This document shows positions 1,092 through 36,489 of a stretch of 64,000 nucleotides of DNA, piece by piece. The DNA is from Trichaptum fuscoviolaceum. Its lineage: Eukaryota; Basidiomycota; Agaricomycetes; Hymenochaetales; Trichaptaceae. How positions within the stretch are numbered: the first letter of the stretch is position 1; each line of letters begins with the position of its first letter. The stretch is from contig CAJSYZ010000001.1 in NCBI GenBank assembly GCA_910574455.1, positions 5,483,518-5,547,517 of the forward strand. The letters are read 5' to 3'. The position numbers and the translations under genes were made by a program. The notes below the pieces were generated by a model. That model saw nothing but the letters and a program-made list of their open reading frames with translations, was not told the DNA's origin and did not search any database.

Positions 1092-1162
1092 AGACACTGG
1101 CCCGGACAGAAGAAGATTGCTGAGAACTGAGGAAAACGGTGAAGATTCACAGATGTATCTAC

Positions 1163-8490: not shown

Positions 8491-8585
8491 AATATTCCCG
8501 TTTTATATAAGGCTCCATCGCCTTTTATTCTCGTCAATCTGTCGAGTTGTACTCCTGTCTTACAAAGACACTCGACGCGGTTACA

Positions 8586-8713
8586 GATCCGATTTGTAAG
8601 TCTGAGACGGGCAATTCTCAAAAAAATGTGAGTCTATGCAGTATGCCAGATCTGATTTGTAAGTCCGAGACGGGGAATGTTCAAAGGCAATGTGTTCGTA
8701 CAATATACCAGGT
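8586..8713. repeat. tandem duplication of about 64 nt
   Basis: Two head-to-tail copies share CAGATC(C/T)GATTTGTAAGTC and GAGACGGG(C/G)AAT(T/G)(C/T)TCAAA. The mirrored place in the right arm (about 36185-36240) has one copy, so the duplication arose in the left arm after the arms formed. It lies in the leader region of the SDR pseudogene at 8784. Confidence 0.6.
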
Positions 8714-8783
8714 ATCTTGGAGCGGAGAACTTATAAGAAGGCCAAAGGATTGTTGAGGATGCTACCATCTCCCTACAATTAGA

Positions 8784-9753
8784 ATGTCTTCCAATCTTGC
8801 AGGCCAAACAGTCGTTGTCGTCGGCGGTTCCTCCGGGATCGGATATGGCGTCGTAAAGGCATCACTTCTCCAGCACGCCGCTCATGTCATAATCGGCTCT
8901 TCGTCTGCAGAGAAGGTCAAGGGCGCAGTGAAGAGCCTCCAGGCCGACACAGCGAATTCTGCAGCTCCGGGCACCGTTTCGGGCGACGTTCGACGGAAGT
9001 AACTCAGATTCCATCAAGGCGTTCTTTGAGAAGCTCGGCGAGATCGACCATCTTGTATGGACATGTGGGCCACCGCCACGCTTTGGAGAGAAGGGCCTAG
9101 AGGACGGCAGAGGTGAGTCATCCGATAAGACCAGTACGCACTAAAGGTCGTGATTTGACCCTCACGAATTCCGATGACTTCGATGTGCGATTCTGGGGTG
9201 CGGTCACCGCAGCGAAGGTGGCAAAGTTTCGTAAGGAGGGTTCTGTGACATTTACCACCGGTAAGGCACCCACTCTTCCTCTTCGTTCTGCCGTGCTTCA
9301 CACAGTTGCATCGTACTAGGAATAGCACTACTGACACCCCCTCCCGGGTGGTCCATCGCCAGTGCGACTTTTGGCGCCGTCGACGGCATCTCGCACGGCC
9401 TGGCTGTGGACATGGCTCCGATCCGCGTGAACACCGTGGCCCCCGGCTCCGTCAAAACCGAGGTGAGTTACCCAAATGTCGATCCATGTTCTGTGTGCAC
9501 TCACCACGTATGCTACAGCTCTGGGAAACGCTCCCAGCAGAGATAGTCGCACAGAGATTCAGCCAGATGGAGAAATTGCTGCTCGTGAAGCACGTCGCGG
9601 ACGCAGATGAGATCGCCGAAGCCTATCTGTTCCTTATGAAGTGAGTTCGCACAACATGCTGTAGACTTTGTGGACTGACTAACCGGTCTTAGATGCAAGT
9701 ACATCACCGGGCAGAGGCTCGAGGTGGAGGGGGGTGCCAAGTATGGGCACTAA
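8784..9753 (+). pseudogene. SDR family oxidoreductase copy a, frameshifted
   Basis: This is the left-arm partner of the intact SDR at 36077-35105. The start MSSNLAGQTVVVVGGSSGIG is intact, but a 2-nt deletion near 8990 (GTTCGACG where the partner has GTTATCGACG) shifts the frame into TAA. Exon 1 is 329 nt against 331 in all intact copies. In addition the acceptor before exon 2 is lost: the partner has TTGACAGAG, here CCGATGACTT. The remaining exons, splice sites and the C-terminal KYITGQRLEVEGGAKYGH are still readable to TAA at 9751-9753. Decay is therefore recent. It faces the SDR-b pseudogene across a non-coding block. Confidence 0.85.
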
Positions 9754-10833
9754 GGGTCGATAAACGCAAATAGCTTGAATCTTCACCAATGCAATAAGTG
9801 ATATCGTATTCTCTGTTAACTTGGTCTGTTTGAGAACATGTCGGCGGTCTATATTGGCAGGCAAACTCACATATAACCCGAGGCTACTTCACCATCCCTA
9901 ACGATTCTAATATCCATTGAAAGATTCCTAGCTTATATGCAGCGAAATCGCTCTAGGATGTTGGCAGAAAGGACTGAAACTGACATTTGATATCTCAACA
10001 ACATCTACTTGGGCGCTCTCAAGGGCGAATGTGAATATTCTGAGAAACGAAAAAGCTTACGGAACGAAGTGAGCTCTCAATACGGTCACATATGCGCTTG
10101 CGGAGATGAATAATCCTTGAAGCAATGATGTAAAAATGTAGTCCGGGAAGCAAGTTTGGTGTTCAGTGTTCAAGTTGAAAACTGTCATTGGAAGTCCCCA
10201 ACGTGGAGCGGACTTTGAAACACGGTCACGTGCCACTGGCACGTTGGCGACGCGACGCCGGGTTGTCTTTTCACACTTCGCCCTTCTACATAGCAAACTC
10301 ACTCTGCCGACATTCGGCATAATAAGTCTTCTTCAGAAATCTGATAGCTCCTAATAGGAGCATTAGGGAGCTACAGCCCTGTTACTCTGTTCTTCTCTCG
10401 AGGCTCCAAGAACTGTATACCGTTTCAGCAGTTAACCTACCAAATAGTTAACCTACCAAATCCTGACAACTCTCAAATCGCCATCGAACAGTACGTTGTG
10501 TTTTGAGAAGCCTGGCTATCTCTAAAACTCGGCCAGCTTGCTTCTTGTCGCTAAACATATATGTCGAAAAATACGTGACATTTGACTCGCGAAGAAGGTA
10601 AACATCATTAGTTATCTGATTGCACTCATCTTCCTATTTCGCCTATTGGGCCCGAGGGTGCCATATAACTAAGTTAAAGCAAGGCAAGTAATTGCCGGTC
10701 AGGTAGTAGACCGCACTGGTGTCGGCATTGTCAACTTGGAAAACGTTCATCAACAATCAGCATTGTATCTATACTATGTGGCTTCGCGAACCAAAACAGT
10801 ACTGCCTTTTTTTCTTACAGTAAGTTCTAGAGG
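9754..10833. other. non-coding block between SDR copies, conserved in three places
   Basis: No gene is recognised, yet the part at about 10065-10510 is conserved in the right arm (about 34355-34800) and again at about 36490-36950. Shared landmarks are a CACGTG E-box core within GTCACGTGCCACTGGCACG (about 10226), GCCGACATTCGGCAT, and the hairpin at 10345-10373. It separates two SDR copies that converge. It could be an old mobile element, an untranslated RNA or shared regulatory DNA; I cannot tell which. Confidence 0.55.
10345..10373. other. hairpin-forming inverted repeat
   Basis: TAGCTCCTAAT and ATTAGGGAGCTA are reverse complements apart from one extra G, with a 6-nt loop. The mirror copy at 34489-34517 keeps the structure. 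The third copy of the surrounding block (about 36600) does not keep it cleanly. It may be a transcription or termination structure, or a scar. Confidence 0.55.
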
Positions 10834-11777
10834 TTAAACATACTTCGCACCACCGTCCACTTCAATTCTCTGTCCGGTGATATACTGTACTTGCATCTAG
10901 GTGTCGCTAGTCAGTGCTTATAACCTATACAATCCAAGAAGATGGCGGTGACTCACTTCATGAAGAAGGTATAGGTTTTTGCAAGCTCATCTGGGTCACC
11001 TAAGCGCTTGACAGGAGATGCCTCAGAAAACATCTCGAATAATCTCTGTTGCACCTCCGGCGGGTGCAAATTCCAGAGATAATTGAGCGTTTGGTGCGTG
11101 TATTATCTCACTAACTCTTGGAATGCCCACCTCAGTTTTCACAGTAACCGGGGCAGACACAATTTACATGGATAGGTGCCATATCGACGGCTAAAGCTCA
11201 CGTGAATTCGTCAACTGCGCCGGCTCCGGCACTGCCAAGTGCTACTCCTCGTCGTAGTCTAAAAAGGATCGCGCCTAGAGACGTTTCACTAACAAGGAAT
11301 GGATAAGATATAAAAGACGTTACCTGTTGTGAGTGTCACCGAATCCTCTTTACGGATTGGATAGCCACTCCCCGAAAACGCACATCAAAAATCCCTGCTT
11401 GCACGTATCAATAACAAGATTGCTAATCAAGTGCTGAAGCAGCTCACCCTTCTGCTCTTCCAGATCCTGGCCCGCAAACGTGGTCCCGTCTCCGCTCGTC
11501 CAAACTAAGTGATCAACCTCCCCGACCTTGTGAAAGAACGCGTTCACCGAAGCCGGTCTTTCGCATCAATCACGTCACCCGAAGCTTTCCCTCCCACGGA
11601 AGCGTTGGCGGCATCAGCCTTGAGGCGCTTGAGAGCATCTTCCACTTTGACTTTGGACGACGAGCCAATTGTAACGTGAGCCGCATGCTGAAGTAAGGCT
11701 GCTTTCGCGACGCCGTATCCGATCCCAGAGGAACCGCTGACAATGACGACTGTTAAACCAGCAATGTTAGAAGACAT
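10834..11777 (-). pseudogene. SDR copy b, decayed before the duplication
   Basis: The gene starts at 11777 (MSSNIAGLTVVIVSGSSGIG) and ends with the TAA at 10834-10836. Exon 1 (11777-11448) is 330 nt, one nt short of the intact 331, so the frame ends in DRLR-stop. Exon 2 has lost about 14 nt of the AAKAAKFRK region, and exon 5 has 5 extra nt (AAGTACAGTATATCACC). The same three lesions occur in the right-arm partner at 33098-34040, so they predate the arm duplication or were shared by gene conversion. In this arm exon 3 reads GAVDEFT, without the stop found in the right arm. Confidence 0.85.
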
Positions 11778-12343
11778 AGTGTAGCGCTTCGAGGTGCATC
11801 TTGCAGTTAGTCTCTTATAGCTTTCCGCTACAGTTTAGGTCAACGAATTATCCGTTCATTGGGAACAGAATGTCATCAATATGACCGAACTTATCCCAAA
11901 AAGGCAAACATTCTGCGATGAGCCTCGGCGAGATCGTGACTCGGAAATACCAGCTACTCCTCATCTTTTCAAGATCTCTTCTAGCCTCGCAGCGAACCGC
12001 AGTAATCAACTGTGGCTCATACTTTTCCTACGCACGCATAACAGCCGGAGGTCTTAGGATACCCTACAACCGCAAACAGATGTGTAGTGACCGAGTAAAT
12101 TTAGTCAAATATTTGACTGGGTTTATTTCTGCTACACAGACACCACCTTGACACGAGTTCAGTAGACATGTACGTATATCATAGTGATTTATAAATCTAC
12201 ATTCAGAACTTCAACGATTTGAGATCGTTGAGGAATGCGGACGGCCGGATCTATTATCTGGGTTTCAAAAAACAAATCCTGTGCAGCCGAAACGTCGGCA
12301 GACACTGTGAAACACACTGGAGGAAGTAAAAAGATGTTCCGAT
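11778..12343. other. intergenic with palindrome, SDR-b to tRNA
   Basis: No protein gene is recognised. It holds the SDR-b leader (TATAAG box, rc near 11813-11819), the long palindrome at 12082-12137, a short hairpin CAACGATTTGAGATCGTTG near 12216, and a T-run downstream of the minus-strand tRNA (AAAAAG on this strand near 12330). The whole stretch is mirrored in the right arm. Confidence 0.5.
12082..12137. repeat. 56-nt imperfect palindrome
   Basis: A perfect 16-nt core AGTCAAATATTTGACT (12103-12118) is flanked by weaker arms that begin GTGTAG and end CTACAC. The mirror copy is at 32729-32784. It lies about 200 nt from the tRNA gene in both arms. It could be a miniature mobile-element relic or a protein-binding site. 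Confidence 0.6.
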
Positions 12344-12432
12344 AGCCCACCGCGAGGGTCGAACTCGCAGCCTTCAGATGCCTTTATGTACTCGTAAGAG
12401 TCTGACGCTCTATCCGATTGAGCTAGGCGGGC
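12344..12432 (-). tRNA. tRNA-Lys (CTT) with a 15-nt intron, left-arm copy
   Basis: On the minus strand the sequence folds with acceptor GCCCGCC/GGTGGGC, D arm GCTC/GAGC, anticodon stem TCAGA/TCTGA and T arm GCGAG/CTCGC around TTCGACC. The anticodon loop is CT-CTT-A and a 15-nt intron (CGAGTACATAAAGGC) follows base 37, the canonical eukaryotic position. A TTTTT Pol III stop lies just downstream. It is identical over all 89 nt to the right-arm copy at 32433-32521, unlike the diverged DNA around both. Confidence 0.93.
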
Positions 12433-12839
12433 GATGAATAATATTCGGTACGTTCTTACAATATCTACTTTCCTTTTCTTTTGATTTGCCGAAAAGTAAA
12501 CACTTGGGTTAGATAGCTAGATCATCAAAAAGTAAGATAAACATATCCGTCTCAGATGATATGCTCCAAATCTTCGGAGGACCCGGCAACTGCCTACTTT
12601 TCACTCGGTCTCTGGGTTCGTGAGATACAACCCAGACGGATAATATATGTATGACTTAGATTCAAGTATGACTGGAAAGCAATATCTCGAGAAAATCTGT
12701 TTAACATTTTTTTTCCATCAAAAGTCAACATACACTAGTCAAATCACCTCAGGTGTTTAGACAATGTAGTTACGCGAAATAACTCTCAAGTAGTGAGCTG
12801 TACTCCGACTTTCATATGAGCTTAAAGTTAGACATATTT
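12433..12839. other. intergenic, tRNA 5' flank
   Basis: No gene is seen. It is the mirror of about 32045-32432 and includes the 3' flank of the SDR-h relic. Confidence 0.4.
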
Positions 12840-13190
12840 CGCTCCACCATCGACCTTGATTCTCTGTCCGGTTATGTATTTGTATCTAGTAGGGACCTGT
12901 CAGTGTCTATCCTCACTAGAGAACAAAATAGATACCCACTTCATGAGGAGATATAGGCTTCTGCTACCTCATCCGGATAAGCTACGTGCTTGACAAGAGA
13001 AGACTTTGAAAAGATCACAAATAATTTTTGTTGCGCCTCGGGTGGGTGCGTATTCCAGAGCTGCGTGATATTCAGTGAGTGTATCAGAGCTTAACGTGAT
13101 TGAAGCATTCACCTCAGTTTTCACAGCGCCAGAACTCAGACACTTGACCGCATCCATAACTTTATCCTTGGATGAAGAGGCGAGTTCCAT
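12840..13190 (-). pseudogene. SDR relic h, left-arm remnant of SDR-c
   Basis: It matches the intact SDR-c (31097-32072) but with two deletions. A piece of exon 1 (ELASSSKDKVMDAVKCL) is fused directly to the end of exon 3 (SGAVKTEV), followed by the normal donor and the exon 4 and 5 sequences (LWNTHP, VKHVA, then a damaged C-terminus). The junctions correspond to loss of about 1.52 kb (right-arm 29655-31180) and 0.5 kb (31255-31757). Together these equal the 2008-nt step between arms. The relic proves the left arm lost DNA rather than the right arm gaining it. Confidence 0.85.
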
Positions 13191-13823
13191 GTTCGAGCAA
13201 GTGCAGATTCATATGAGAAGTCCATAATTACGGGTTCCTGATTGAGGCAGGGTAATTAACGGATTGCGTTACCATTACGCATATTGGGGAGGTAACAGAG
13301 AATCGGTCTTCCTCGTGTTGAGGACAAATGAGGAATCTGTGCTTCGATGCATTAGGGTAAATGTTTGACATGTGCTGCACAGACAATTTGCTTTCTTATA
13401 ACTCAATAAATATCCGTCAATTGCGTGACGATCATTCTCAGCTGTCTAGCTTGAAGCTGAAGAAGATATTGGTTCACTTTGTTTGCTGATGGTAGCCTTC
13501 AAAGACATGGTCGAGAGTGATCACTGGGAGCACCTACTATGGCAAATGAATGTACAAGGATTTCATTTCACCGTATCTCTGCTTTAACATAGACAGACTT
13601 GTCAGGGAAATAGCCAATAACTCCAGCTTGAGTACTCACATATAGAGTGTGCTGCACCATATAATAACATGGATGATTCTGTCAAGTATTTTCTTCCGAG
13701 TTGCCTAATTTATGCCAGTGTGCCGGAGCGGCAGCCTGAGTGGAGTTCGAATATCGTAATATCGGCGTAGAAGCTGGAGATCGCCGGATTATGCACTTGC
13801 CTCGCTGTTCTCGACTGACCACC
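13191..13823. other. intergenic upstream of arm F-box gene
   Basis: No gene is seen. Sequence mirrors parts of 28252-28630 and 29420-29655; the 782 nt between those parts in the right arm, including SDR relic g, is absent here. It contains the F-box promoter. An in-frame ATG at 13740 would add 28 residues, but the ATG at 13824 has the conserved CTGACCACCATG context. Confidence 0.5.
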
Positions 13824-14801
13824 ATGAGCTCTGCTGCAGCGGACGACAAACAGAACGTAGCAAATGCAGTCGATGACGTCCCTAACACTTATGGCTTCGC
13901 AAACATTCCTGTTGAGATCGTGCGGAAGATCTTCGAAGTATCTGTATGCCCAAGCTCAACGGTGGATGACGACCATCAGCGACAACAGACAGCGTACGCG
14001 TGCTGTTTAGTGTCGAAGGACGTTAAGGACTGGGTGGAGCCTCTACTCTACGAGAAGGTTGTCCTTGAGTCAACGAACCAGGTTGTGAGCTACCTTAAAG
14101 CTCTGAAGATAAAATCCGCAGATTTCATCGCGCGGACCGTGAAGAAGGTCTGGATCCTCGACGAGAACCTTGCCGATGATGCAGTCCAACAGCTTCACCG
14201 CCTGTTCAGTAAATGCATCTCCTTGGAAAGCTTCGCATGCATAGGAAGCGACCCGTGCAGCCAAGCACTGCAATTCCTTTGCATACACCTCAGTGATTCG
14301 GACTCGCTTCAAGAGCTGGCCATCATCCTACCGGATCGTTCGACGTCAGACTTTCTTCGTCTGCGCAGCGTCTCTACGCAAGTTTTTCAGATTATCGACG
14401 CCAAGTTAGGGCTATTTCGAACCCCCTACGGCCGAATCAGGCAGGAGGATAATTATGCCAAGGCACTCCGCGCGATTCCACGCATCTTCTTCGACTTTAC
14501 AACCGTCCCAAGCAAGCGCGATTCACTGTGGTTCAAGTCTGAGTTCCTCCCCTTACTCCGCCTGGAGTCGCCCGAGTCCAACAATATCCTCTATCTGCGC
14601 TCCGCCCCCGCCATGGCGCGCGATCTCGACCCCGAGGAGAGATTTGATGATGTTGACTCATGGGTTAGGAGTTTTGACGACGAAGTTCAACAATGCGAAG
14701 GTCGGCTTGTTGTGTGTGCGAAATTGGTTACAGCAGTGCATGCATATCCTGGGGCTCCGCATCTTGAGCGGTGCAAGCCATGGATTGGTTTGTATGAGTA
14801 G
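13824..14801 (+). CDS. F-box-like domain protein, family copy 3 (left arm)
   Basis: A 325-residue intact single-exon frame. The F-box-like part is ANIPVEIVRKIFEVSV followed by TAYACCLVSKDVKDWVEPLLY and EKVVLES. The middle is rich in short hydrophobic repeats without clear LRR periodicity, and the end is RSFDDEVQQCEGRLVVC and ERCKPWIGLYE. I chose the second in-frame ATG because CTGACCACCATG also precedes the start at 4884 and in the mirror gene. It is about 94% identical to that mirror gene (28251-27274), both open, so both are probably still under some selection. Its role would be substrate selection for an SCF ubiquitin ligase, by family inference. Confidence 0.8.
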   Translation: MSSAAADDKQNVANAVDDVPNTYGFANIPVEIVRKIFEVSVCPSSTVDDDHQRQQTAYACCLVSKDVKDWVEPLLYEKVVLESTNQVVSYLKALKIKSADFIARTVKKVWILDENLADDAVQQLHRLFSKCISLESFACIGSDPCSQALQFLCIHLSDSDSLQELAIILPDRSTSDFLRLRSVSTQVFQIIDAKLGLFRTPYGRIRQEDNYAKALRAIPRIFFDFTTVPSKRDSLWFKSEFLPLLRLESPESNNILYLRSAPAMARDLDPEERFDDVDSWVRSFDDEVQQCEGRLVVCAKLVTAVHAYPGAPHLERCKPWIGLYE

Positions 14802-15262
14802 CTTGTTGTGAGTGTGGAAGAGTACAAAGTGATTACTGTATATCAGAATCTCTAGAACGCCAGTGGCGGTGCACGTGGCGCTCGCACGATATTTTGGCAA
14901 AGAAACAGTTGAGATCCGAAGGTCTTAGGCAGTCGCGCTTGACGTTTGCCGGGACGCTATGCGTAGACCTTGAGTGAAAGAAGTGCCTCCAGGAAGTTTC
15001 ACAGTGAGAACGAAGAAGACTCTCGTTCAATTTGATTGTTTATGCTAGCTGTCGAATTACGTAAAAGGTAGGAGTGAGCACCTAGAGGCGTAGTGAGTGA
15101 CGATACGAGAGTCCCGTTTCACATTATCTCCGTCACCTTGTATTAGACTCGTCAAAGAACGATAATGGCCAGTATGGAGAGGCGAGGCTCATCCAATATC
15201 GGCGGCAAACTGAAGAAAAGACACGAATATCAGGACAGTTATACAAGTAAAAATCAGAAAAT
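14802..15262. other. intergenic, 3' flank of arm F-box gene
   Basis: Mirrors about 26842-27273 with scattered differences. No gene is recognised. Confidence 0.4.
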
Positions 15263-16077
15263 TCACTTTTTTTTCTCCAAATATGTCGTGAATTGATGCA
15301 AACTCGGAAAGTTTCGCCCACACCGATACTTTGTTTGTAGTCGTGCGTCAGACCTCATACAGGAGCCTATGGTGCCAGTGAGAGCATGCGTCTGCTGAAG
15401 AGAACGTTTCAAGGAGTCGATGGCAAGTAGGTCAACCGTCGTCGTCGAAGAGCTAAGAGCAACAAGCAGTAATAAACGTCGATTGCCTGGGAACGGCCTT
15501 TCAACCAACCAGTTGCTATCGTCATCAAACAAGTCCAAGTTACCGTAAATGGAAGTCAATGTACATTTCGGGAATTAATCTCGGCAAATAAGTGTTGCCG
15601 AACTTCCGGCTATTCATGTTAGACGAACGACAAACGGTTCACCATATACACCCATGCTCTCTGCCCCGCTACATTTCCAATTGAATCACTCCTGCTTGTT
15701 CTATTCGAAGCTCCGGGCATTGTATCGCTCAGCCATATGCTGTCAGTGGAAGTAAAATGAAGCAAAACATATGGATTCAAGCTGTTAGTACTCTGGTAAA
15801 ACCGGAAGCGGTGTTAAGATTGTCCATGTGCAACACTTCGTACTTCTGGATGATGCGCCGAGTCACCAACTTCGATACGATACGGTTGTTGCCAGAAGTC
15901 ATACTGTGAGTAATCTACGTAGACGGAAGCGAGCTCAATCATATCTGAAACGTCTGCTCTTGCAGTCCACAACAACGTGACCCCGTCCATCCGTAACTCT
16001 CTGACTTGGCTATTGGCTAGTCGCGCGATCGTCCCAGCTGCGATAATGATCTCCGAGTCTTTGACCTGGCCCAGCAC
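15263..16077 (-). pseudogene. unrecognised arm gene, probably decayed (left arm)
   Basis: Two minus-strand open stretches, 16077-15814 (starting MLGQVKDSEIIIAAGTIARL) and 15559-15263 (containing LFDDDSNWLVERPFPGNRRL and TTTVDLLAIDSL), are conserved in the right arm at 26085-26841 on the other strand. In the right arm the first stretch is interrupted by stops, and here a TAA follows VAHGQS, after which the same frame stays open to VNRLSFV. Conservation of peptide-like sequence suggests a former gene; no family is recognised. It may never have been a protein gene. Confidence 0.35.
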
Positions 16078-16800
16078 ATTCGCAAAAAAAAAAAAAACGA
16101 AAAATTAACCTCGAAGTTCCGAAAGTCAAAACAAGTCAGAAGAGTCCCAAGCGACTAGTAACTAGTAACTAGACCCCAGGCCTGCCACTGGACTCGATCT
16201 TCGTTTGCTCGTCAATGCGAAAAAAAAGGAGGTATTAATTGGTAATCTTCCGGGGCGAGATTACTACTGAAAGCGCTCAGGGCCTCAGGCGGGCTCTTCA
16301 TCTTCGACAACACCATTCACATATTTCTCGCTCTTTTTCCAGCCATTCGGTGTGACCTACTGGATGGGCGGCCCGGGGTGGCCGCAGATAGCCTGGTTAT
16401 CGGGAAGGCCGTTCTTTGATGCGGAGACGCGTCGACGACGTTCTTGCTGTTGTCATTGTGCAGATAGAGAGTACATCCCATGAAAGAGCTGCGAGGTAAA
16501 GCGTCAGACGTACTAAGCCGTGTTTGATCCTGGCCCGGGGGCAGAGACCAAAGACCAGAAATAGAGACCACGAGGCGTATCGTACGACTTCAATCCTACC
16601 AGGCGAGCCATAATCACTAGGAGCTAAGTCATCCCTTGACCTTCTTGCCCATTGTGACGGTCCCTCGTCCCTCGTCGCGAGAAGCCAGTAGGCCACAGTT
16701 CGTCTCGATATTTCGAGAGAAGGAGTCTCGCGCTGACACCGCCGTGAAGGGGTGATGTGATGTGTTGAGCTGTTGTATTTAGACGTGGATGAGTTGTCTG

Positions 16801-16829
16801 ATATGATATGATATGATTATGATATGATA
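16801..16829. repeat. ATATG-type microsatellite
   Basis: Five to six copies of a GATAT/ATATG unit with one interruption. Confidence 0.7.
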
Positions 16830-17338
16830 CGGACCCGACCAACTGGTGAACTTATTACTGCGCGAGGGCCATAAATAGCGCGAACCGGCCGCAAGGACAG
16901 GACGTAAGCCCGGGCCGTCCCGCACGAACGCATTGTATGCAGAGGTTCAGCGTATGTACATGCAGTGAGGAAGAATAACTTAGCGTACAGTGAGTGAATC
17001 GTACGACTTCGAGTTCGCGCCTCGTAGCCGCTCGACTCCCGAGTCCGACCCTTGACCTTCCTTGTCTTTCGACACAAAAAAAACATCAAGTCGGAATTTG
17101 CAACTTCCGAGTTGCCATCCGTGGCCGGGGCCGGGCCCGGGGCTAAGGTGTGCGAGTCCGGTCAGTCAGTCGACCGGCCGGCGGCGGCCGGCCTGAGTTT
17201 TAGAACTTCAAGTTGAAGGGGTGATGCATCGTAGCTTCATAAGAATTTAAAATTCGAACGTCAGTAAATGAGTACTTGCAGTATATCGATACATAAGCCC
17301 TACATAGCTCAAGGGGTGCTTCAAGTTGTTGACTCCTT

Positions 17339-17612
17339 AGCGCGCTAGTGCCATCAGTGACCCGGATCAGGGTTAACGCGTAGCGTTCGTCACGGTGGGC
17401 CTGGCTTTGTCTCGTAGTGGCCTAGTACATAGAGCTGTCCGAATCCCGATATGTCTAATGTCTGGTAACTTCACGACCGAGGGCGACTGTGTGCTAGCGC
17501 CATCAAAGTCCGGGGATGGTCGGTTAACGGCGGGTAGGTCTGACTACTATCATGATGCCCCAGGTTCGCAGTGCTTAGCGCGAGAGTCGGGCTTGGTATC
17601 TTCGCGACCGAG
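17339..17612. repeat. two imperfect repeats of about 140 nt
   Basis: Two diverged copies share CTAG(T/C)GCCATCA, GGTTAACG, and TGGTA(A/T)CTTC(A/G)CGACCGAGGG in the same order, starting near 17345 and 17495. No coding signal is seen in either. Confidence 0.45.
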
Positions 17613-22025: not shown

Positions 22026-22140
22026 GGGCCGGCGCCGTGCGCTTCTCTCGCATCTCTTTCGCCTTCGACTTCGACTTCGTTTCTGTCCGTCTGAATCTGT
22101 TCTTCTGTTTCCAAGCGCCTTAATATGTTCTATTATCTCG

Positions 22141-23546: not shown

Positions 23547-23601
<55 letters not shown>
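23547..23601. repeat. GAACCA hexanucleotide repeat
   Basis: Nine copies of GAACCA. It reads as Glu-Pro or Asn-Gln on the plus strand and Gly-Ser or Phe-Trp on the minus strand, so the long frames across it are partly created by the repeat. Confidence 0.9.
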
Positions 23602-27273: not shown

Positions 27274-28251
27274 CTACTCATACAAACCAATCCATGGCTT
27301 GCACCGCTCAATATGCGGAGCCCCAGGATATGCATTCACTGGCGTAACCAACTTCGCACACACAACAAGCCGGCCTTCACATTGATGAACCTCATCGTCA
27401 AAACTCCTAACCCATGAGTCAACATCATCGAATTTCTCCTCGGGATTGAGATCGCGCGCCATGGCGGGAGTGGAGCGCAGATAGAGGATATTGTTGGACT
27501 CGGGCGACTCCAGGCGGAGTAAGGGGAGGAACTCAGACTTGAACCACAACGAATCGCGCTTGCTTGGGACGGTTGTTAAGTCGAAGAAGATGCGCGGAAT
27601 CGCGCGGAGCGCCTTGGCATAATTGTCCTCCTGCCTGATTCGGCCGTAGGGTGTTCGAAATAGCCCTAACTTGGCGTCGATAATCTGAAAAACTTGCGTA
27701 GAGACACTGCGTAGACGAAGAAAGTCTGAAGTCGAACGATCCGGTAGGATGATGGCCAGCTCCTGGAGCGGGTCCGAATGACTGAAGTGTATGCGAAGGA
27801 GTCGCAGTGCTTGGCTACACGGGTCGTTTCCTATGCATGCGAAGCTTTTCAAGGAGATGCATTTACTGAACAGGCGGTGAAGCTGACCGACTGCATCATC
27901 GGCAAGGTTCTCGTCGAGGATCCAGACCTTCTTCACGGTCCGCGCGATAAAATCTACGGATTTTATTTTCAGACCTTTAAGGAAGCTCACAACCTGGTTC
28001 GTTGACTCAAGGACAACCTTCTCGTAGAGTAGAGGCTCCACCCAATCCTTAACGTCCTTCGACACTAAACAGCACGCGTACGCTGTCTGTTGTCGCTGAT
28101 GGTCGTCATCCACCGTTGAGCTAGGGAAAACAGATACTTCGAAGATCTTCCGCACGATCTCAACAGGAATGTTTGCGAAGCCATAAGTGTTAGGGACGTC
28201 ATCGACTGCATTTGCTACGTTCTGTTTGTCGTCCGCTGCAGCAGAGCTCAT
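27274..28251 (-). CDS. F-box-like domain protein, family copy 4 (right arm)
   Basis: An intact 325-residue frame, mirror partner of 13824-14801. It has the same F-box-like start (PVEIVRKIFEVSV) and end (ERCKPWIGLYE). About 20 residues differ, for example VCPSS to VFPSS, KALKIKSADF to KGLKIKSVDF and AVHAYPG to PVNAYPG. The start is placed at 28251 for the same reason as its partner; an in-frame ATG at 28335 would add 28 residues. Two open, diverging copies fit either retained function in both or a recent duplication. Confidence 0.8.
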   Translation of the reverse strand: MSSAAADDKQNVANAVDDVPNTYGFANIPVEIVRKIFEVSVFPSSTVDDDHQRQQTAYACCLVSKDVKDWVEPLLYEKVVLESTNQVVSFLKGLKIKSVDFIARTVKKVWILDENLADDAVGQLHRLFSKCISLKSFACIGNDPCSQALRLLRIHFSHSDPLQELAIILPDRSTSDFLRLRSVSTQVFQIIDAKLGLFRTPYGRIRQEDNYAKALRAIPRIFFDLTTVPSKRDSLWFKSEFLPLLRLESPESNNILYLRSTPAMARDLNPEEKFDDVDSWVRSFDDEVHQCEGRLVVCAKLVTPVNAYPGAPHIERCKPWIGLYE

Positions 28252-28869
28252 GGTGGTCAGTCGAGAACAGCGAGGCAAGTGCATAATCCGGCGATCTCCG
28301 GCTTCTACGCCGATATTACGATATTCGAACTCCACTCAGGCTGCCGCTCCGGCACACTGGCATAAATTAGGCAACTCTGAAGAAAATACTTGTCAGAATC
28401 ATCCATGTTATTATATGGTGCAGCACACTCTATATGTGAGTACTCAAGCTGGAGTCATTAGCTATTTCCCTGACAAGTCTGTCTATGTTAAAGTAGAGAT
28501 ACGGTGAAATGAAATTCTCGTACATTCCCCAGTGATCTATCTCGCCCGTCCATTCTACAGCTACCATCAGCAACCAGAAGTGAACCTACATATCGGTTTC
28601 ATGTTAGGCAGCTGAGAATGCTCGTGATGATTTGAAGGCTCTTCTTACTAACTGGACTTCCTGATGCCCTTGGATTTCAACTGTTTTTTTGCCTACGTAC
28701 CGGGCGAGAGTTACGTATACGTCAGCCGGAGTTTCCCAAACTACTCTGTCCCAAGTTCCTGATACTCAATCTTTGCTTCAACATCTTCAGTATTCACGAC
28801 AATCTGCGCAGTAACTGTTCCGCTCATTTTGTCAATAAATAATAACTGATCCTTTAACCTTTCCAAGCG
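28252..28869. other. intergenic upstream of right-arm F-box gene
   Basis: No gene is seen. Up to about 28630 it mirrors 13440-13823; beyond that it is right-arm-only DNA. Confidence 0.4.
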
Positions 28870-29087
28870 CAAATCTAGACAAGCATTCCGCCACCGTCCA
28901 ATACGACCTTCTGACCCATGATGTACTTGCATCCGGAAAGCAACCGTGTCAGTGTTGTGGCGTCTATCAGGTGCACTCTGTTATTTAATGAGCTACCTTT
29001 ATGACATTTCTTCCACTCGAACATTTGACACGAAGGACCAACACAGATCCTCCGACACTTGCATACGACGAGCAGATGAGGTCTCAC
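28870..29087 (-). pseudogene. SDR relic g, C-terminal fragment
   Basis: The end of a minus-strand frame reads SGCKYIMGQKVVLDGGGMLV-stop, clearly the last exon of the SDR family (intact copies: CKYITGQRIEVDGGAKYV). Upstream sequence is too decayed to align. No partner exists in the left arm, whose sequence skips this 782-nt stretch. Confidence 0.65.
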
Positions 29088-29790
29088 TATCCGCTTTCTC
29101 TACAGCAGCAATCCCGCCTGAGTTATTCCGTATATCCTGTTCTCCTGGCTTCGATTTGATTATCTTGCATCACCACAAATAATTAAGAAAGGAGCTTGGG
29201 TTTGGTCGAATATCCATACTCTATCCGTAAAGCAAATTATCTTAAACTATCTTGCAGCCGCATAAAGCTATGGTCACATCCTCGGGGTAAGGTAGAGCCC
29301 ATAACCGCACTGAAAGTACAGTAAGTGAACATATAATGTGCCGCATCTACATTTTCGGGACACTGACTACATCTCGTCGACAATTCCAATGGCGCATACT
29401 ATCGTGAGTATTCTGCTCTGAGTTATTATCACGCAATTGACGGATATTTATTGAGTGATAAAAAAGCAAATTGTCTGTGCAGCACATGTCAAACATTTAC
29501 CCTAATGCATCGAAGCACAGATTCCTCATTTTTTCTCAACATGAGGAAGACTGATCCTGTCTTGCCTTCCCAAGACGCGTAACAGGACGCATTCCGTGAA
29601 TTACCCTGCCTCATTCAAGAACCCGTAATTATAGACTTGTCATATTCATCTGCATCGTCGTTTACTTCCGTTACTCCTACATTTTCACTGATTGATATTT
29701 ATAAGTTCTACCATCAGCAGACTAAGAACCATCAAATAAATCTCATCCCGAAAGGCGAGCCGTACCCATTCTCTCAAACTAATCTCAAAT
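29088..29790. other. intergenic between SDR relic g and SDR-d
   Basis: No gene is seen. From about 29420 to 29655 it matches left-arm 13200-13440, after which the left-arm deletion begins. Confidence 0.4.
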
Positions 29791-30744
29791 TCACACGTAC
29801 TTCTCACCCCCATCCAGCTCGATTCTCTGCCCCGCGATGTACTTGCATCTATCATGTGCCTTTCAGTACGTACAGCTCGACTAATCATTGACCACGGACT
29901 TACTTCATACAAAAGATATAGGCTTCTGCAATCTCATCCGGCTCAGCTATGTGCTTTACGGGAAGCTTCTTCGTTAAGCTATCGAACATTTTCTCGAGTT
30001 CATTCGGTGGATATGCATCCCAGAGCTATTAATGAAATCCTGTGAGCGTGCGTATATAATTCCCAGTTAAATCCTCACCTCTGTTTTTACCGCTCCCGAG
30101 CATACACTGTTCACTCGAATTGGGGCCATATCTACGGCTAGACCGCGCGTAAACCCATCTACTGCGCCGGACACCGCGCTTCCCAAAAACCACCCAGGAC
30201 GGGGTCTGAGGAAGGCCGTTCCTATGCCATAGTCAGCGGATAAAAAAGCCAAGTTCATTGAGCTTTACCTGTAGTGAGCGTCACAGACCCACCCTTTCGA
30301 AATTTCGCTGCTTTAGCTGCAATCGCGGCTCCCCAGAACCGTACGTTGAATAAGTCTACACTTATACTGTAAGTAATCCAGTCCATTTGCACGAGGTTCT
30401 ATCGGCGTCTTACTGTTTCCCGCGACCGTTCCGTCCTCTTCAAACTTCAGTTTGTCCCCACTCGTCCACACCAGATGATCGATCTCGCCAATATTGCTCA
30501 AGAATGTCTTGATAGAGCTCGCGTCGTTTCCATCAACCACGTCACCTGAAATAGCGCCCACCACTGAAGCACTCGCTACATCCGCCCTCAGACGCTCCAC
30601 TGCGTTCTCAACTTTGGCCTTATTCGAAGACCCGATTACGACCCGGGCAGCTTCTTGGAGCAAAGCTGCTTTCGCAACGCCGTAACCGATTCCAGAGGAA
30701 CCACCGATAACGACTATAACTTGGCCTGCGAGATTGGAAGACAT
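29791..30744 (-). CDS. SDR family oxidoreductase copy d, intact
   Basis: Five exons (30744-30414, 30355-30269, 30221-30079, 30025-29904, 29848-29791) are 331, 87, 143, 122 and 58 nt and join in frame to 246 residues. The Rossmann start is VIVVIGGSSGIGYGVAKAAL, with Gly in place of the usual Thr of TGxxxGIG, and IDHLVWTSG where most SDRs have NNAG. Near residue 150 the usual catalytic YxxxK is absent: the region reads PGWFLGSAVSGAVDGFTRGLAVDMAPIRVNSV. The C-terminus is KYIAGQRIELDGGEKYV. It is expected to bind NAD(P) in the cytosol; whether it is an active reductase is open. It shares a 352-nt divergent promoter with SDR-c. Confidence 0.88.
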
Positions 30745-31096
30745 CTTAGGAGCAGCATAATCTCGTATTTCACCGGTCTTCTTATAACTCTAATGCCGAA
30801 GTAGGTCAATGCGGGTATTGATATCATTATGAACGAAGCCGAGGACCATCGCACTATTATTGCCTTTTTGGGTTGAAGTTGTCACCGTTAATGCATCATC
30901 TATAAACCATATTAGGGAGGAAGGCATGTCATAGTGATGACACTTTGAGTCCAAAAAGGAGCAATCTGCGCATTGATGGTCGGCTGCGTCGACGAGTTTC
31001 TTAGCGGACGATCTTGACATCATGCCTAGGCAGTAACTGCAAGGTATAAAACCCCATAAAAATGCGACGGCAAGATGCACCTCGAATCACTACAAC
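30745..31096. promoter_or_regulatory. divergent promoter of SDR-d and SDR-c
   Basis: The two starts are 352 nt apart. On the plus side GGTATAAAACC puts a TATA box at 31045-31051, 46 nt before the SDR-c ATG. On the minus side GAGTTATAAGAAG gives a TATA-like box near 30780-30787, about 36 nt before the SDR-d ATG. The SDR-c leader GCAAGATGCACCTCGAA also precedes SDR-e at about 33073-33090. Confidence 0.65.
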
Positions 31097-32072
31097 ATGT
31101 CTTCTAACCTTGCAAGCCAGACCGTAGTCATCATCGGCGGTTCCTCTGGAATTGGATACGGCGTCGCAAAGGCGGCCTTACTCGAACATGCAACTCGCGT
31201 TATCATTGGCTCTTCATCCAAGGATAAAGTTGAGGATGCGGTCAAGCGTCTGAGAGCAGATACCGCAAGCGCTTCTGTTCCGGGCGCGATCTCGGGCGAC
31301 ATAGTCGATGGTAAGGATGCGAACTCTATCAAGGCATTCCTTGAGAAGGCCGGCGAGATTGATCACTTGGTGTGGACAAGCGGAGATGCGCTCAATTATG
31401 TTGGCCAGGATTTCTTAGCGCATAAGGGTAAGCTGTTCTTGCATACATCTACTTAACTACTCCATGTGTTTACCTTGCGAAAACACATCTAGATGTCTTT
31501 GACGTTCGTTTTTGGGGTGCAGCGATCGCGGCGAAGGCGGCTAAATTTCGCAAGGGGGGCTCTGTAACACTCACGACAGGTATTGTCTTTAAGATATTGG
31601 CCGTGCCTTATCAATAGTTAATAATTTACTAGGTGCTATCTTCTTGAGGCCCCGTCCAGGAGTAGCACTTGGAAGCGCGGTGGGGGGCGCAGTCGATGGG
31701 TTCACGAGAGGTTTAGCCGTTGATATGGCACCTATCCGTGTTAATAGCGTCTGTCCTGGTGCTGTGAAAACCGAGGTAAATGCTTCAAGTACTATCTTAT
31801 GCTCTAATGCTCTAACTCAACTCTCACACAGCTCTGGAATACGCACCCACCCGAGGTGCAACAGAATCTATTCAAGATGTTTTCCGAGTCTTCTCTTGTC
31901 AAGCACGTAGCAGACCCGGATGAGGTTGCAGAAGCCTATATATTCTTAATGAAGTTAGTTTTCTGTATCTATTCTGCTCCGTAGTGAGGACAGAGACTGA
32001 CAGGAGTCTACTAGATGCAAATACATAACCGGGCAGAGAATCGAGGTCGATGGTGGAGCGAAATATGTCTAA
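31097..32072 (+). CDS. SDR family oxidoreductase copy c, intact
   Basis: Exons 31097-31427, 31493-31579, 31633-31775, 31832-31953 and 32015-32072 give exactly 741 nt and 246 residues. Features are QTVVIIGGSSGIGYGVAKAA at the nucleotide-binding fold, DHLVWTSGD near residue 100, FDVRFWGA, GSVTLTTG (a strand that ends at the Ser position of classical SDRs), RPRPGVALGSAVGGAVDG without the catalytic Tyr and Lys, then APIRVNSVCPGAVKTE and the C-terminal KYITGQRIEVDGGAKYV. Same architecture and exon lengths as copies d and f. The left arm keeps only relic h of this gene. Confidence 0.9.
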
Positions 32073-32432
32073 CTTTAAGGTCATATGAAAGTCGGAGTAC
32101 AGCTTACTACTTGAGAGCTATTTTGCGTAACTACATTGTATAAACACCTGATGTGATTTGACAAAAAGGATGTTAAACAGATTTCCACCAGATATTGCTT
32201 TCCGGTTATATTTGAATCTACAAAGTCATATGTTATCCATCTGTGTTGTATCACACGAGCCCGAAGACCGAGGGAGCAGTAGACAGCTGTCGGTTCCTCC
32301 GAAAATCTGGAGCATATCATCTGTGACAAACTTGTTGATCTAGCTGCAGCCCGAGTGTTTACTTCTCTGCAACTAAAATGAAGATGAATGGAAGTGATGA
32401 ATGAGTGATCACTGACTATTTGTTCTTACATC
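32073..32432. other. intergenic between SDR-c and tRNA
   Basis: No gene is seen. It mirrors 12433-12839. Confidence 0.4.
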
Positions 32433-32521
32433 GCCCGCCTAGCTCAATCGGATAGAGCGTCAGACTCTTACGAGTACATAAAGGCATCTGAAGGCTGCGA
32501 GTTCGACCCTCGCGGTGGGCT
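32433..32521 (+). tRNA. tRNA-Lys (CTT) with a 15-nt intron, right-arm copy
   Basis: Same fold as the left-arm copy: acceptor 32433-32439 pairs with GGTGGGC, anticodon CTT at 32467-32469, intron 32471-32485, T loop TTCGACC, discriminator T. A TTTTT stop follows at about 32533. It is base-for-base identical to 12432-12344. Confidence 0.94.
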
Positions 32522-33097
32522 ATCGGAACATGTTTTTACTTCTCCAAGTGTGTTTCACAGTGCCGGCCGACGTTTCGGATGCACAGGATTTGTTTTTTAA
32601 CACCCAGATTAAGAGATCCGGCCGGCTACATTCCTTAAAAATCTCAAATTGTTCAAGTTTTGGCTGTATATACATTAACCATTATGATATACCTACACAT
32701 TTTCTGAAATCGTGCCAAGTTGATGTCTGTGTAGCAGAAATAAACCCAGTCAAATATTTGACTAAATTTACTCGGTCACTACACATCTGTTTGCGGTTGT
32801 AGGGTATCCTAAGACCTCCGGCTGTTATGCGTGCGTAGGAAAAGTATGATTCACAGTTGATTACTGCGGTTCGCTGCGAGGCTAGAAGAAATCTTGAAAA
32901 GATGAGGAGTAGCTGGTATGTCCGAGTCACGATCTCGTTGAGGCTCATCGCAGAATGTTTGCCTTTTTTGGCTAAGTTGGCAGGAAAGGGTCATATTGAT
33001 GACATTCTGTTCCCAATGAACGGATAATTCGTTGACCTAAACTGTAGCGGAAAGCTATAAGAGACTAACTGCAAGATGCACCTCGAAGCGCTACACT
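32522..33097. other. intergenic with palindrome, tRNA to SDR-e
   Basis: Mirror of 11778-12343. No protein gene is seen. It includes the palindrome at 32729-32784 and the SDR-e leader with CTATAAGAG near 33055. Confidence 0.45.
32729..32784. repeat. 56-nt imperfect palindrome, right-arm copy
   Basis: The core AGTCAAATATTTGACT is at 32748-32763 and is unchanged from the left arm, with the same GTGTAG...CTACAC ends. Confidence 0.6.
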
Positions 33098-34040
33098 ATG
33101 TCTTCTAACATTGCTGGTTTAACAGTCGTCATTGTCAGCGGTTCCTCTGGGATTGGATACGGCGTCGCAAAAGCAGCCTTACTTCAGCATGCGGCTCACG
33201 TTACAATTGGCTCGTCGTCCAAAGTCAAAGTGGAAGATGCTCTCAAGCGCCTCAAGGCCGATGTCGCCAACGCTTCCGTGGGAGGGAAAACTTCGGGTGA
33301 CATGATTGATGCGAAAGACCGGCTTTGGTGAACGCGTTCTTTCACAAGGTCGGGGAGGTTGATCACTTGGTTTGGACGAGCGGAGACGGGACCACTTTTG
33401 CGGGCCAGGATCTGGAAGAGCAGAAGGGTGAGCTGCTTCAGCACTTGATTAGCAATCTTGTTATTGATACGTGCAAGCAGGGATTTTTGATGTGCGTTTT
33501 CGGGGAGTGGCTATCCAATTCGTAAAGAGGGTTCGGCGACACTCACAACAGGTAATGTCTTTCATATCTTATCCACTCCTTGTTAGTGAAACGTTTCTAG
33601 GAGCGATCCTTTTCAGACCACGACCAGGAGTAGCACTTGGAAGTGCCGGAGCCGGCGCAGTTGACTGATTCACGAGAGGATTAGCCGTCGATATGGCACC
33701 TATCCGTGTAAATTGTGTCTGCCCCGGTACTGTGAAAACTGAGATGGGCATTCCAAGAGTTAGTGAGATAATACACGCACCGAACGCTCAATTAGCTCTG
33801 GAATTCTCACCCGCCGGAGGCGCAACAGAGATTACTCGAGATGTTTTCTGAGGCATCTCCTGTCAAGCGCTTAGGTGACCCAGATGAGCTTGCAAAAACC
33901 TATACCTTCTTCATGAAGTGAGTCACCGCCATCTACTTGGATTGTATAGGTTATAAGCACTGACTAGCGACACTTAGATGCAAGTACAGTATATCACCGG
34001 ACAGAGAATTGAAGTGGACGGTGGTGCGAAGTATGTTTAA
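33098..34040 (+). pseudogene. SDR copy e, decayed (right arm)
   Basis: Partner of SDR-b. Exon 1 (33098-33427) is 330 nt, with a 1-nt deletion ending the frame at DRLW-stop. Exon 2 is shortened (FDVRFRGVAIQF, with the conserved Trp changed to Arg). Exon 3 carries an extra TGA (GAVD-stop-FTRG) not present in the left arm, and exon 5 has a 5-nt insertion. The remaining family landmarks (RPRPGVALGS, APIRVN, GQRIEVDGGAKYV in shifted frame) are clear. Confidence 0.85.
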
Positions 34041-35104
34041 CTTCTAGAACTTACTGTAAGAAAAAAAGGCAGTACTGTTTTGTTCGCGAAGCCACATAGT
34101 ATAAATATGCTGATTATTGATGAACGTTTGCCATGTTGACAATGCCGAAGCAACGATCTATTACCTGACCAGCGATTATCTGCCTCGATTTATCTTAGTT
34201 ATATAGCACCCTCGGGCCCAATAGGCGAACTAGGAAAATGAGTGCAATCAGATAACTAGTGATGTTTACCTTCTTTGCGAGTCAAATGTCACGTATTTTT
34301 CGACATATATGTTTAGCGACAAGAAGCAAGCTGGCCGAGTTAAAGAGACAGCCAGGCTTCTCAAAACACAATGTACCGTTCGATGGCGATTTGAGAGTTG
34401 TCAGGATTTGGTCAGTTAACCGCTGGAACGGCGTTGTTCCGGTATATAGTTCTTGGAGCCTCGAGAGAAGAACAGAGTAACAGGGCTGTAGCTCCCTAAT
34501 GCTCCTATTAGGAGCTATCAGATTTCTGAAGAAGACTTATTATGCCGAATGTCGGCAGAGTGAGTTTGCTATGTAGAAGGGCGAAGTGTGAAAAGACAAC
34601 CGTCGCGTCGCCAACGTGCCAGTGGCACGTGACCGTGTTTCAAAGTCCGCTCCACGTTGGGGACTTCCAACGACAGTTTTCAACTTGAACACTGAACACC
34701 AAACTTGCTTCCCGGACTACATTTTTACATCATCGCTTCAAGGCTTATTCATCTCCGCAAGCGCATATGTGACCGTATTGAGAGCTCACTTCGTCCCGTA
34801 AGCTTTTTCGTTTCTCAGAACATTCACATTCGCCCTTGAGAGCGCCCAAGTAGATGTTGTTGAGATATCAAATGTCAGTTTCAGTCCTTTCTGCCAACAT
34901 CCTAGAGCGCTTTCGCTGCATATCAGCTAGGAATCTTTCAATGGATATTAGAATCGTTAGGGATGGTGAATCAGCCTCGGGTTATATGTGAGTTTGCCTG
35001 CCAATATAGACCGCCGACATGTTCTCAAACAGACCAAGTTAACGGAGAATACGATATCACTTATTGCATTGGTGAGGATTCAAGCTATTTGCGTTTATCG
35101 ACCC
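34041..35104. other. non-coding block, right-arm copy
   Basis: Mirror of 9754-10833, lying between convergent SDR-e and SDR-f. It includes the CACGTG E-box core in CAGTGGCACGTGACCGTG (about 34620) and the hairpin at 34489-34517. No protein gene is recognised. Confidence 0.55.
34489..34517. other. hairpin-forming inverted repeat, right arm
   Basis: TAGCTCCCTAAT pairs with ATTAGGAGCTA across a 6-nt loop; counterpart of 10345-10373. Confidence 0.55.
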
Positions 35105-36077
35105 TTAGTGCCCATACTTGGCACCCCCCTCCACCTCGAGCCTCTGCCCGGTGATGTACTTGCATCTAAGACCGGTTAGTCAGTCCACAAAGTCTACAGC
35201 ATGTGCGCGAACTCACTTCATAAGGAACAGATAGGCTTCGGCGATCTCATCTGCGTCCGCGACGTGCTTCACGAGCAGCGATTTCTCCATCTCGCTGAAT
35301 CTCTGTGCGACTATCTCTGCTGGGAGCGTTTCCCAGAGCTGTAGCATACGCGGTGAGTGCACACAGAACATGGATCGACATTTGGGTAACTTACCTCGGT
35401 TTTGACGGAGCCGGGGGCCACGGTATTCACGCGGATGGGAGCCATGTCCACAGCCAGGCCGCGCGAGATGCCGTCGACGGCGCCAAAAGTCGCGCTGGCG
35501 ATGGACCACCCGGGAGGGGGTGTCAGTAGTGCCATTCCTATCATGATGCGGCTATCAGAAAAAGACAGAGCGAACAAGAAGAGTGGGCGCCTCACCGGTG
35601 GTGAATGTCACAGAACCTTCCTTACGAAACTTTGCAACCTTCGCTGCAGTGACCGCGCCCCAGAATCGCACATCAAACATCTCTGTCAACGAAATTCGTG
35701 AGGGTCAAATCACGACCTTAAGTGCGTAGTGCGGAGGATGACTCACCTCTGCCGTCCTCTAGGCCTTTCTCTCCAAAGCGTGGCGGTGGTCCACATGTCC
35801 ATACGAGATGGTCGATCTCGCCGAGCTTCTCAAAGAACGCCTTGATGGAATCTGAGTCACTTGCGTCGATAACTTTGCCCGAAACCGTGCCCGGAGCCGC
35901 AGAGCTCGCTGTGACGGCTTGGAGGCGCTTCACCGCGCCCTTGACCTTCTCTTCAGACGAAGAGCCGATTATAACGCGAGCAGCGTGCTGAAGCAGCGAT
36001 GCCTTTGCAACACCATAACCTATCCCGGAGGAACCGCCGACGACAACGACTGTTTGGCCTGCAAGATTGGAAGACAT
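35105..36077 (-). CDS. SDR family oxidoreductase copy f, intact
   Basis: Exons 36077-35747, 35682-35596, 35537-35395, 35338-35217 and 35165-35105 (331, 87, 143, 122, 61 nt) join in frame to 247 residues. It has VVVVGGSSGIGYGVAKASL, DHLVWTCGP, EMFDVRFWGAVTAAKVAKFR, GSVTFTTG, then TPPPGWSIASATFGAVDG in place of a YxxxK motif, APIRVNTVAPGSVKTE, and the end KYITGQRLEVEGGAKYGH. It is the working partner of the left-arm pseudogene SDR-a. A TATA-like TTATAAG lies at 36139-36145, about 61 nt before the ATG, and a TATAAAA (minus strand) at 36176-36170. Confidence 0.9.
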
Positions 36078-36489
36078 GTGGAAAGTGGTGAGATGGTAAA
36101 GTTCCCGCGCTTGGCGTCCTCAACGATCCTGTGGACCTCTTATAAGCGGTCCCGGCCACCTCAAGATGTCTTTTATACTGTACGAGCAAGAGTATTTGAA
36201 CATTTCCCATCTCGGACTTACAAATCGGATCCGTAATCGCGTCGAGTGGCTTTGTAAGACACGCCAGCTAGATGCTCATCGGCGTCGATACCAACGCCCT
36301 TGATCAGCCTGCTTTTATCGCCTATATCCGGATTAAAGTGGAAAGTGAGCGTATAGTTATATTGCAGCATCGCAAGCCATTTCATTGATATAGCGGATGC
36401 GTGAAGGAGAACCGTGATTAGTGGATCGTATTCGAGCCGTGGCCCGCGTGAGGCGCAACGGCCTCCAGCTATACGATCCTAGTAAGCTT

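Follow-up and report, generated by a model that had tools for sequence, protein, structure and literature searches.

A long inverted duplication with mosaic divergence flanks a single-copy bHLH gene near a chromosome end of Trichaptum fuscoviolaceum

The arms and the spacer

We analyzed a stretch of 64,000 nucleotides (the window) from the basidiomycete Trichaptum fuscoviolaceum (assembly GCA_910574455.1; 12 contigs, 59 Mb). The window is C1:5483518-5547517, the last 64 kb of the contig CAJSYZ010000001.1 (C1; 5,547,787 bp). It contains two long arms in opposite orientation, with genes of the short-chain dehydrogenase/reductase (SDR) family, a tRNA-Lys gene and an F-box/LRR-like (LRR, leucine-rich repeat) open reading frame (ORF) in each, and between them a spacer with a single-copy bHLH gene. 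This arrangement is probably a subtelomeric inverted segmental duplication that is ageing and has been partly homogenized. Coordinates are window positions (position 1 is the start of the window) unless a contig is named, e.g., C1 or C2. A giant imperfect inverted duplication had been proposed here in a first-pass annotation of the sequence, and comparison of the window with itself, using self-BLAST followed by MAFFT alignment of the arms, demonstrates that it is real:

8556..16010, plus strand: left arm, three collinear blocks (BLAST, MAFFT), 7.46 kb
16011..26123, no strand: spacer, 10.1 kb
26124..36261, minus strand: right arm (BLAST), 10.14 kb

The inverted matches detected by self-BLAST include main block 1 (8649-13135 / 31753-36231, coordinate sum 44880-44888), small block 2 (13202-13428 / 29429-29654, sum 42856-42857), main block 3 (13428-16010 / 26124-28625, sum 42053-42134) and an outer stub (8556-8622 / 36195-36261, sum 44817). 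Both main blocks have E = 0, and thus a chance origin of the similarity is ruled out. The coordinate sums noticed in the first pass (44865, 42857 and 42075) agree with the three collinear blocks, and the jumps between them correspond to sequence that is present only in the right arm. This arm is longer by approximately 2.8 kb, due to the stretches 31255-31752, 29655-31176 and 28626-29428 (approximately 0.5, 1.5 and 0.8 kb), which have no left-arm counterpart and contain SDR copy D and parts of SDR copy C. Most simply, they represent deletions from the left arm, because the left arm retains only a broken remnant of SDR copy C. Across the three main blocks, the arms differ in 578 of 7133 ungapped columns (8.1% divergence, 91.9% identity); the longest perfect match between them is 170 bp, and the longest identical run outside the F-box-like ORF is 164 (11722-11885). 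A mirrored palindrome was also found: in a search for inverted repeats of at least 16 nt within 400 nt, the sole short one shared by both arms was a 16-nt overlapping inverted repeat (12096-12125 / 32741-32770).

Genome searches with 8556-13135 and 26124-31753 yielded elsewhere, among the best candidates, only single SDR, tRNA or F-box-like genes. A dispersed mobile element as the source of the arms was rejected on the basis of these single-gene matches and of the lack, on inspection by eye, of clean terminal repeats or target-site duplication. A segment found in both arms, 10099-10511, which has no long open frame, has a third copy (approximately 70%) at 36486-36935, just beyond the right arm.

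Genes of the arms and of the spacer

8784..9780, plus strand: SDR copy A, left; first exon spread over two frames by a frameshift
35078..36077, minus strand: SDR copy A, right; open first exon with a stop-free match of 98 residues
10833..11777, minus strand: SDR copy B, left; first exon spread over two frames, broken where the first exon of the right copy is
33098..34041, plus strand: SDR copy B, right; first exon spread over two frames, broken where the first exon of the left copy is
12825..13201, minus strand: remnant of SDR copy C, left; internal part missing
31097..32073, plus strand: SDR copy C, right; first exon open
29784..30744, minus strand: SDR copy D, present in the right arm alone; open first exon
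12344..12432, minus strand: tRNA-Lys(CTT) with a 15-nt intron, left arm
32433..32521, plus strand: tRNA-Lys(CTT), right arm; identical to the left copy over 89 nt (0 of 89 differ)
13791..14801, plus strand: F-box/LRR-like ORF, left; counted from the first Met of the open frame
27274..28284, minus strand: F-box/LRR-like ORF, right; Ka/Ks of 0.23 compared to the left copy
20146..22025, plus strand: bHLH gene; exons 20146-20319, 20417-20575 and 20664-22025

The SDR genes were confirmed by Pfam (PF23441/PF00106), these families being scored by the first exons of the right-arm copies A, C and D; the intactness of the copies was judged from first exons only, in a six-frame search with the exon of SDR copy C. 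In the genome, 12 of 17 matches to the SDR exon are on C1, within its last 180 kb. The tRNA-Lys that the first pass had placed in each arm is likewise confirmed, as a tRNA-Lys(CTT) with a 15-nt intron. Two loci on contig C2 (L020, C2:2048827-2049265; L021, C2:1883580-1884107) contain tRNA-like sequences that form closely spaced inverted pairs. The arms of these pairs are near-perfect and measure 96 and 114 bp, respectively, and the sequences are related to the tRNA-Lys of the window at 97 and 81%. ARAGORN, run without an intron model, reports tRNA-Leu(TAG) for the L020 pair and none in the L021 pair.

Both F-box-like ORFs are open. The nonsynonymous divergence (Ka) between them is 0.028 and the synonymous divergence (Ks) is 0.122; the ratio, 0.23, indicates that these genes are under purifying selection. 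The Ks value climbs along the gene (0.05, 0.12 and 0.20 by thirds). The label that the first-pass annotation had attached to these ORFs found no backing in Pfam, with no match at E<=0.01 for the left ORF and, for the related proteins P0001 and P0002, none at E<=1. The predicted structure of the protein (mean pLDDT 68.7) consists of a helical N-terminus followed by alpha/beta units, and the PDB matches of this model are weak: the top ones are mostly leucine-rich-repeat proteins, and none reaches E<=0.001. Because there is no Pfam match and the PDB matches are weak, we use "F-box/LRR-like" to denote a resemblance that the modelled fold suggests. Of the 33 genomic matches of this protein, 29 are on C1 at 5.13-5.52 Mb, with both arm copies counted.

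The bHLH gene anticipated in the spacer of about 10 kb was verified, with a match to PF00010 (E 5.6e-11) in a search with the first 276 residues of the spliced protein. It is a single-copy gene in the genome, and the three pieces of the spacer that were searched (16011-20140, 20300-22200 and 22200-26123) have no genomic match besides themselves. A protein search yielded 664 homologues from 7994 scored candidates; among the best 120 of these 664, the top two are P0012 (94% identity) and P0013 (79%), and the best named homologues, at 46-49% identity, come from Phellinidium, Coniferiporia, Phellopilus, Rickenella and Sanghuangporus, all genera of the Hymenochaetales. Judged by these homologues, the protein is a member of a family widespread in Agaricomycetes. 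Six non-bHLH ORFs, a subset of those in the spacer, were compared to Pfam, and no family was found for any of them (16817-17158, 18250-18696, 18647-19111, 23217-23741, 24694-25245 and 25530-26054). Between the left arm and the start of the bHLH ORF lie 4135 bp, and between the end of this ORF and the right arm 4098 bp.

The chromosome end and the origin of the arms

C1 ends in a TTAGGG array located within 270 bp beyond the window, so that the pair of arms is 28-55 kb from this end. The neighbourhood is rich in duplications and contains expanded gene families, as is typical of subtelomeric segmental duplication. The last 1.2 kb of the window has relatives on C1 to C5, C7 and C10, including the extreme starts of two contigs (C4:287 and C5:1) and two positions well inside contigs (C1:400885 and C2:138623). 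Much of the region at 46.7-61 kb, which contains JmjC- and PHD-like ORFs and an inverted pair of its own, recurs on several other contigs (57.1-59.2 kb was left out of this search). Unlike this shared distal block, the arms as units are not common to other chromosome ends, according to the best candidates of the genome searches. In the terminal 164 kb, the focal arms are the largest duplicated pair and the only inverted match with at least 85% identity among those of at least 500 bp; shorter inverted ones reach 92% (432 bp) and 100% (132 bp).

We propose that a block with the SDR genes, the tRNA-Lys gene and the F-box/LRR-like gene, derived from gene families that had expanded on the same chromosome end, would have been copied in the opposite orientation approximately 10 kb away, leaving the bHLH gene behind as a single-copy spacer. 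The left copy would then have lost approximately 2.8 kb, a loss suggested by the broken SDR copy C, and its SDR genes would have been broken, while the F-box-like genes stayed open. The event itself and the order of these steps are conjectural.

It is possible, though doubtful, that the duplication started as a breakage-fusion-bridge cycle, i.e., that a broken end folded back or fused with its sister, broke again and was healed by capture of another subtelomere, so that two inverted arms remained with the single-copy spacer at the fold; such a start is compatible with a subtelomeric inverted segmental duplication. Breakage-fusion-bridge has been reported in a fungus (PMC3681731). In its favour, the locus has inverted arms and a single-copy spacer close to a telomere, and capture of a telomere would bring in sequence shared with other contigs, as much of the distal 46.7-64 kb is. 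However, the right arm is separated from the shared block by approximately 10 kb (36.3-46.7 kb, where the search covered 43.8-46.7 kb), no breakpoint signature was found, and repeated events would be needed to account for the several less similar inverted pairs of the terminal 164 kb. Replication-based copying would account equally well for the arms, and no breakpoint signature separates it from breakage-fusion-bridge.

Mosaic divergence and probable exchange between the arms

The alignment of the arms was cut by maximum-likelihood segmentation, with the threshold taken from a null model of 200 shuffles, in which the best single-split gain never exceeded 7.3 log units. We obtained seven segments with divergence, in order, of 13.6, 1.8, 11.9, 3.4, 15.9, 4.5 and 11.2% (dispersion index 4.75). 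The three segments of low divergence are as follows:

9325..10414, no strand: 1.8% divergence (20 of 1085); putative tract of gene conversion, paired with 34448-35532
10770..12142, no strand: 3.4% divergence (46 of 1371), frameshifted SDR B and the sequence upstream; partner 32724-34103
13519..14863, no strand: 4.5% divergence (59 of 1326), F-box-like ORF, to which selection contributes; partner 27212-28537

If such a mosaic resulted solely from constraint that differs along two independently diverging arms, with no exchange between them, low divergence would be expected where function is conserved. The purifying selection on the F-box-like ORF and the identity of the tRNA genes (0/89) are in line with this explanation, and coding constraint may account for both the F-box-like segment and the tRNA. 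Conversely, it does not readily explain the low divergence in the intergenic stretch 9781-10414 or in SDR B. Both adjoin DNA at 12-18%. In the former, 11 of 630 columns differ (1.75%), compared to 41 of 344 in the adjoining intergenic stretch 10415-10769; the p-value of 5e-11 for this comparison is optimistic, since the edge between the two stretches was set by the segmentation itself. In SDR B, whose first exon is broken at one and the same position in the two arms, the difference is 36 of 944 (3.8%). When SDR A, the F-box-like ORF and the tRNA were dropped, 456 of the 4987 remaining columns differed, with a dispersion of 5.35 and a minimum of 7 mismatches per 500, and neither value was attained in any of 1000 shuffles. 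It should be noted that these columns were joined across the dropped stretches before shuffling, and that an identical run of 223 found there is inflated by the dropping. Independent divergence under varying constraint is therefore unlikely. Because the mosaic reaches intergenic and pseudogene DNA, it points to gene conversion between the arms, whose split would be as old as that of their divergent segments (11-16%); parts of the arms would thus have been re-homogenized later, by conversion between the inverted copies.

The protein P0001 (336 aa) is the one close database relative of the F-box-like ORF, and its source is presumably a strain or species related to the present one; the 10 others reported have 36-46% identity. 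P0001 differs from the left ORF (L) at 21 residues and from the right ORF (R) at 17. At the 21 sites where L and R differ, P0001 agrees with R at 12, with L at 8 and with neither at one. There are five sites in which P0001 and R share a state while L has the majority state of the paralogues, and no site of the converse kind (P0001 identical to L, the majority to R); because of this asymmetry, the split between L and R seems to predate the separation of the P0001 lineage. The matches of P0001 to L are clustered: they make up 6 of 6 sites in residues 271-316 versus 2 of 14 before (Fisher p = 0.0007, with the split point picked after viewing the data). This cluster is suggestive of what exchange between L and R would leave.

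Several observations weigh against a partly homogenized duplication. First, the ends of the arms, inspected by eye, contain no clean target-site duplication, terminal repeats or shared breakpoint motif. Second, inverted matches are overall little commoner than direct ones in the terminal 164 kb: 30 inverted versus 27 direct matches are 500 bp or longer, and 13 versus 6 are 1 kb or longer (counts for this chromosome end only, with the focal pair included and the low-complexity 38-43.5 kb left out). Third, in the outer part, 8770-9370, the left arm is about as distant from an SDR copy on C5 as from the right arm; this is consistent with an old split there, and it may mean that the history of part of the arms is more tangled than a single event. 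Fourth, the mosaic can stem from constraint, the comparison being that of two arms of one genome, and the cluster in P0001 is equally expected from R-specific change in residues 271-316.

The possibility that two divergent nuclear haplotypes were joined head to head in the assembly would fit an organism that may be a dikaryon, but it is highly improbable: a folded haplotype would continue as a mirror image, whereas the sequences beyond the arms are unrelated (36301-64000 on the right versus 108.5 kb on the left, no match at E<=1e-3), the arms differ by 8% and by three stretches totalling 2.8 kb around a single-copy 10-kb spacer, and the contig runs on to the telomere. A fold-back assembly error was rejected on the basis of the same unrelated flanks.

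Other features of the chromosome end

The second subtelomeric inverted pair, 51817-53381 / 59297-60918, has 68% identity, with the JmjC- and PHD-like ORFs in the distal copy; its relatives are found on several other contigs, many of them at low or high coordinates. The segment 44638-46366 is a copy of a dispersed element present in at least 14 other places, with 80-98% identity over 0.7-1.7 kb. In several of these relatives, an end sequence of approximately 88 nt is repeated farther along in the opposite orientation, e.g., C7:213178-214902 / C7:215561-215649, and one of the ORFs overlapping 44638-46366 has a protein-kinase domain (Pfam E 1.9e-17); the segment is possibly a terminal-inverted-repeat element with a kinase gene. 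At 38018-39133 and 40959-43531 there are long ORFs of Thr/Asp-rich (DTTDTS)n repeats, tandemly repeated internally, that may encode cell-surface proteins. The region 492-4048, which contains an ABC-transporter ORF, forms a further inverted pair of this chromosome end, its 77% counterpart lying 43-46 kb upstream of the window. Also upstream, a direct repeat of 578 bp (99.8%; C1:5450705-5451282 / C1:5456467-5457044, starts 5.8 kb apart) possibly represents the long terminal repeats of a young retroelement.

Possible inversion of the spacer and comparison with known systems

Crossover resolution of the exchanges proposed above would occasionally invert the spacer, as a by-product and not as a regulated switch. 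The first-pass annotation had suggested that the arms could recombine and invert the spacer, as at some fungal switching loci, and that this would change the surroundings of the bHLH promoter. The former is supported in that the mosaic divergence is a sequence sign of DNA exchange; a regulatory role of the inversion is not. Because the gene lies in the middle of the spacer and the arms are mirrored, inversion would leave the promoter with nearly identical neighbours at nearly identical distances: the same F-box-like block faces inward in both arms, and the gene's own 4 kb of upstream spacer would move with it. A programmed switch, in which regulated recombination of the arms inverts the spacer and changes bHLH expression, could be envisaged from inverted arms that flank one transcription-factor gene and bear signs of exchange. 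It is nevertheless very unlikely, and we rejected it on the basis of the central gene, the mirrored arms and their 8% divergence; in addition, the longest perfect match is only 170 bp, a single regulator was recognized in the spacer, the left-arm SDR copies are broken, and the bHLH protein belongs to a widespread family. Recurrent inversion, by comparison, is possible. The mirrored geometry thus corrects the switch idea, since inversion can barely alter what surrounds a central gene. What the locus offers is a testable case of gene conversion, and possibly of recurrent inversion, between long inverted repeats beside a basidiomycete telomere; the sharp edges of the tracts make it testable with sister-strain sequences. 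Literature searches on subtelomeric inverted duplication in basidiomycetes, on the effects of divergence in inverted-repeat recombination and on telomere-to-telomere genomes of Hymenochaetales turned up nothing related.

Fungal subtelomeres are characterized by segmental duplication, expansion of multi-copy families, duplications of mixed similarity and pseudogenes. The locus resembles such segmental duplications in its proximity to the telomere, its multi-copy families, its duplications of mixed similarity and its pseudogenes, and is distinguished from them by the long inverted pair, the single-copy spacer and the patchy homogenization.

In the mating-type (MAT) system of Ogataea polymorpha, identical 2-kb repeats mediate a 19-kb inversion by which two MAT loci trade places, one place being expressed and the other silenced (PMC5720833). 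The likeness is confined to a stretch between inverted repeats that is invertible in principle. Here the repeats are not identical and there is one central regulator gene, with no second cassette recognized among the bHLH gene and the six spacer ORFs scanned; a positional switch of the Ogataea type is thus not supported.

The flip/flop region on chromosome XIV of Saccharomyces is a closer parallel. It has 4.2-kb repeats that start at a tRNA gene and are 97.6% identical in the reference strain, in a 24-kb region near a centromere that occurs in both orientations among strains (PMC9731477). Inversion was proposed there to be a by-product of gene conversion, with approximately 4% of conversions resolved as crossovers, and the orientation remained unchanged in approximately 53,800 mitoses and 950 meioses (PMC9731477). 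The two loci share multi-gene inverted repeats with a tRNA gene and a single-copy middle, and the mosaic divergence of the Trichaptum arms fits a homogenization through intergenic DNA like that indicated in Saccharomyces. The Trichaptum arms differ in that their identity is 92% and patchy (84-98% by segment) instead of near-identity along the whole repeat, that the tRNA gene lies inside arms of 7.5-10 kb, and that the site is subtelomeric and known from one assembly in one orientation. That this is a natural flip/flop region, with ongoing exchange between the arms and a spacer that occurs in both orientations within the species, recurrently recreated as a by-product of gene conversion, is a tentative and somewhat unlikely reading; if true, the locus would be a subtelomeric counterpart, in a basidiomycete, of the Saccharomyces chromosome XIV locus. 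By analogy, we regard it as comparable to the Saccharomyces flip/flop but weaker, and as nearer to it than to the Ogataea system.

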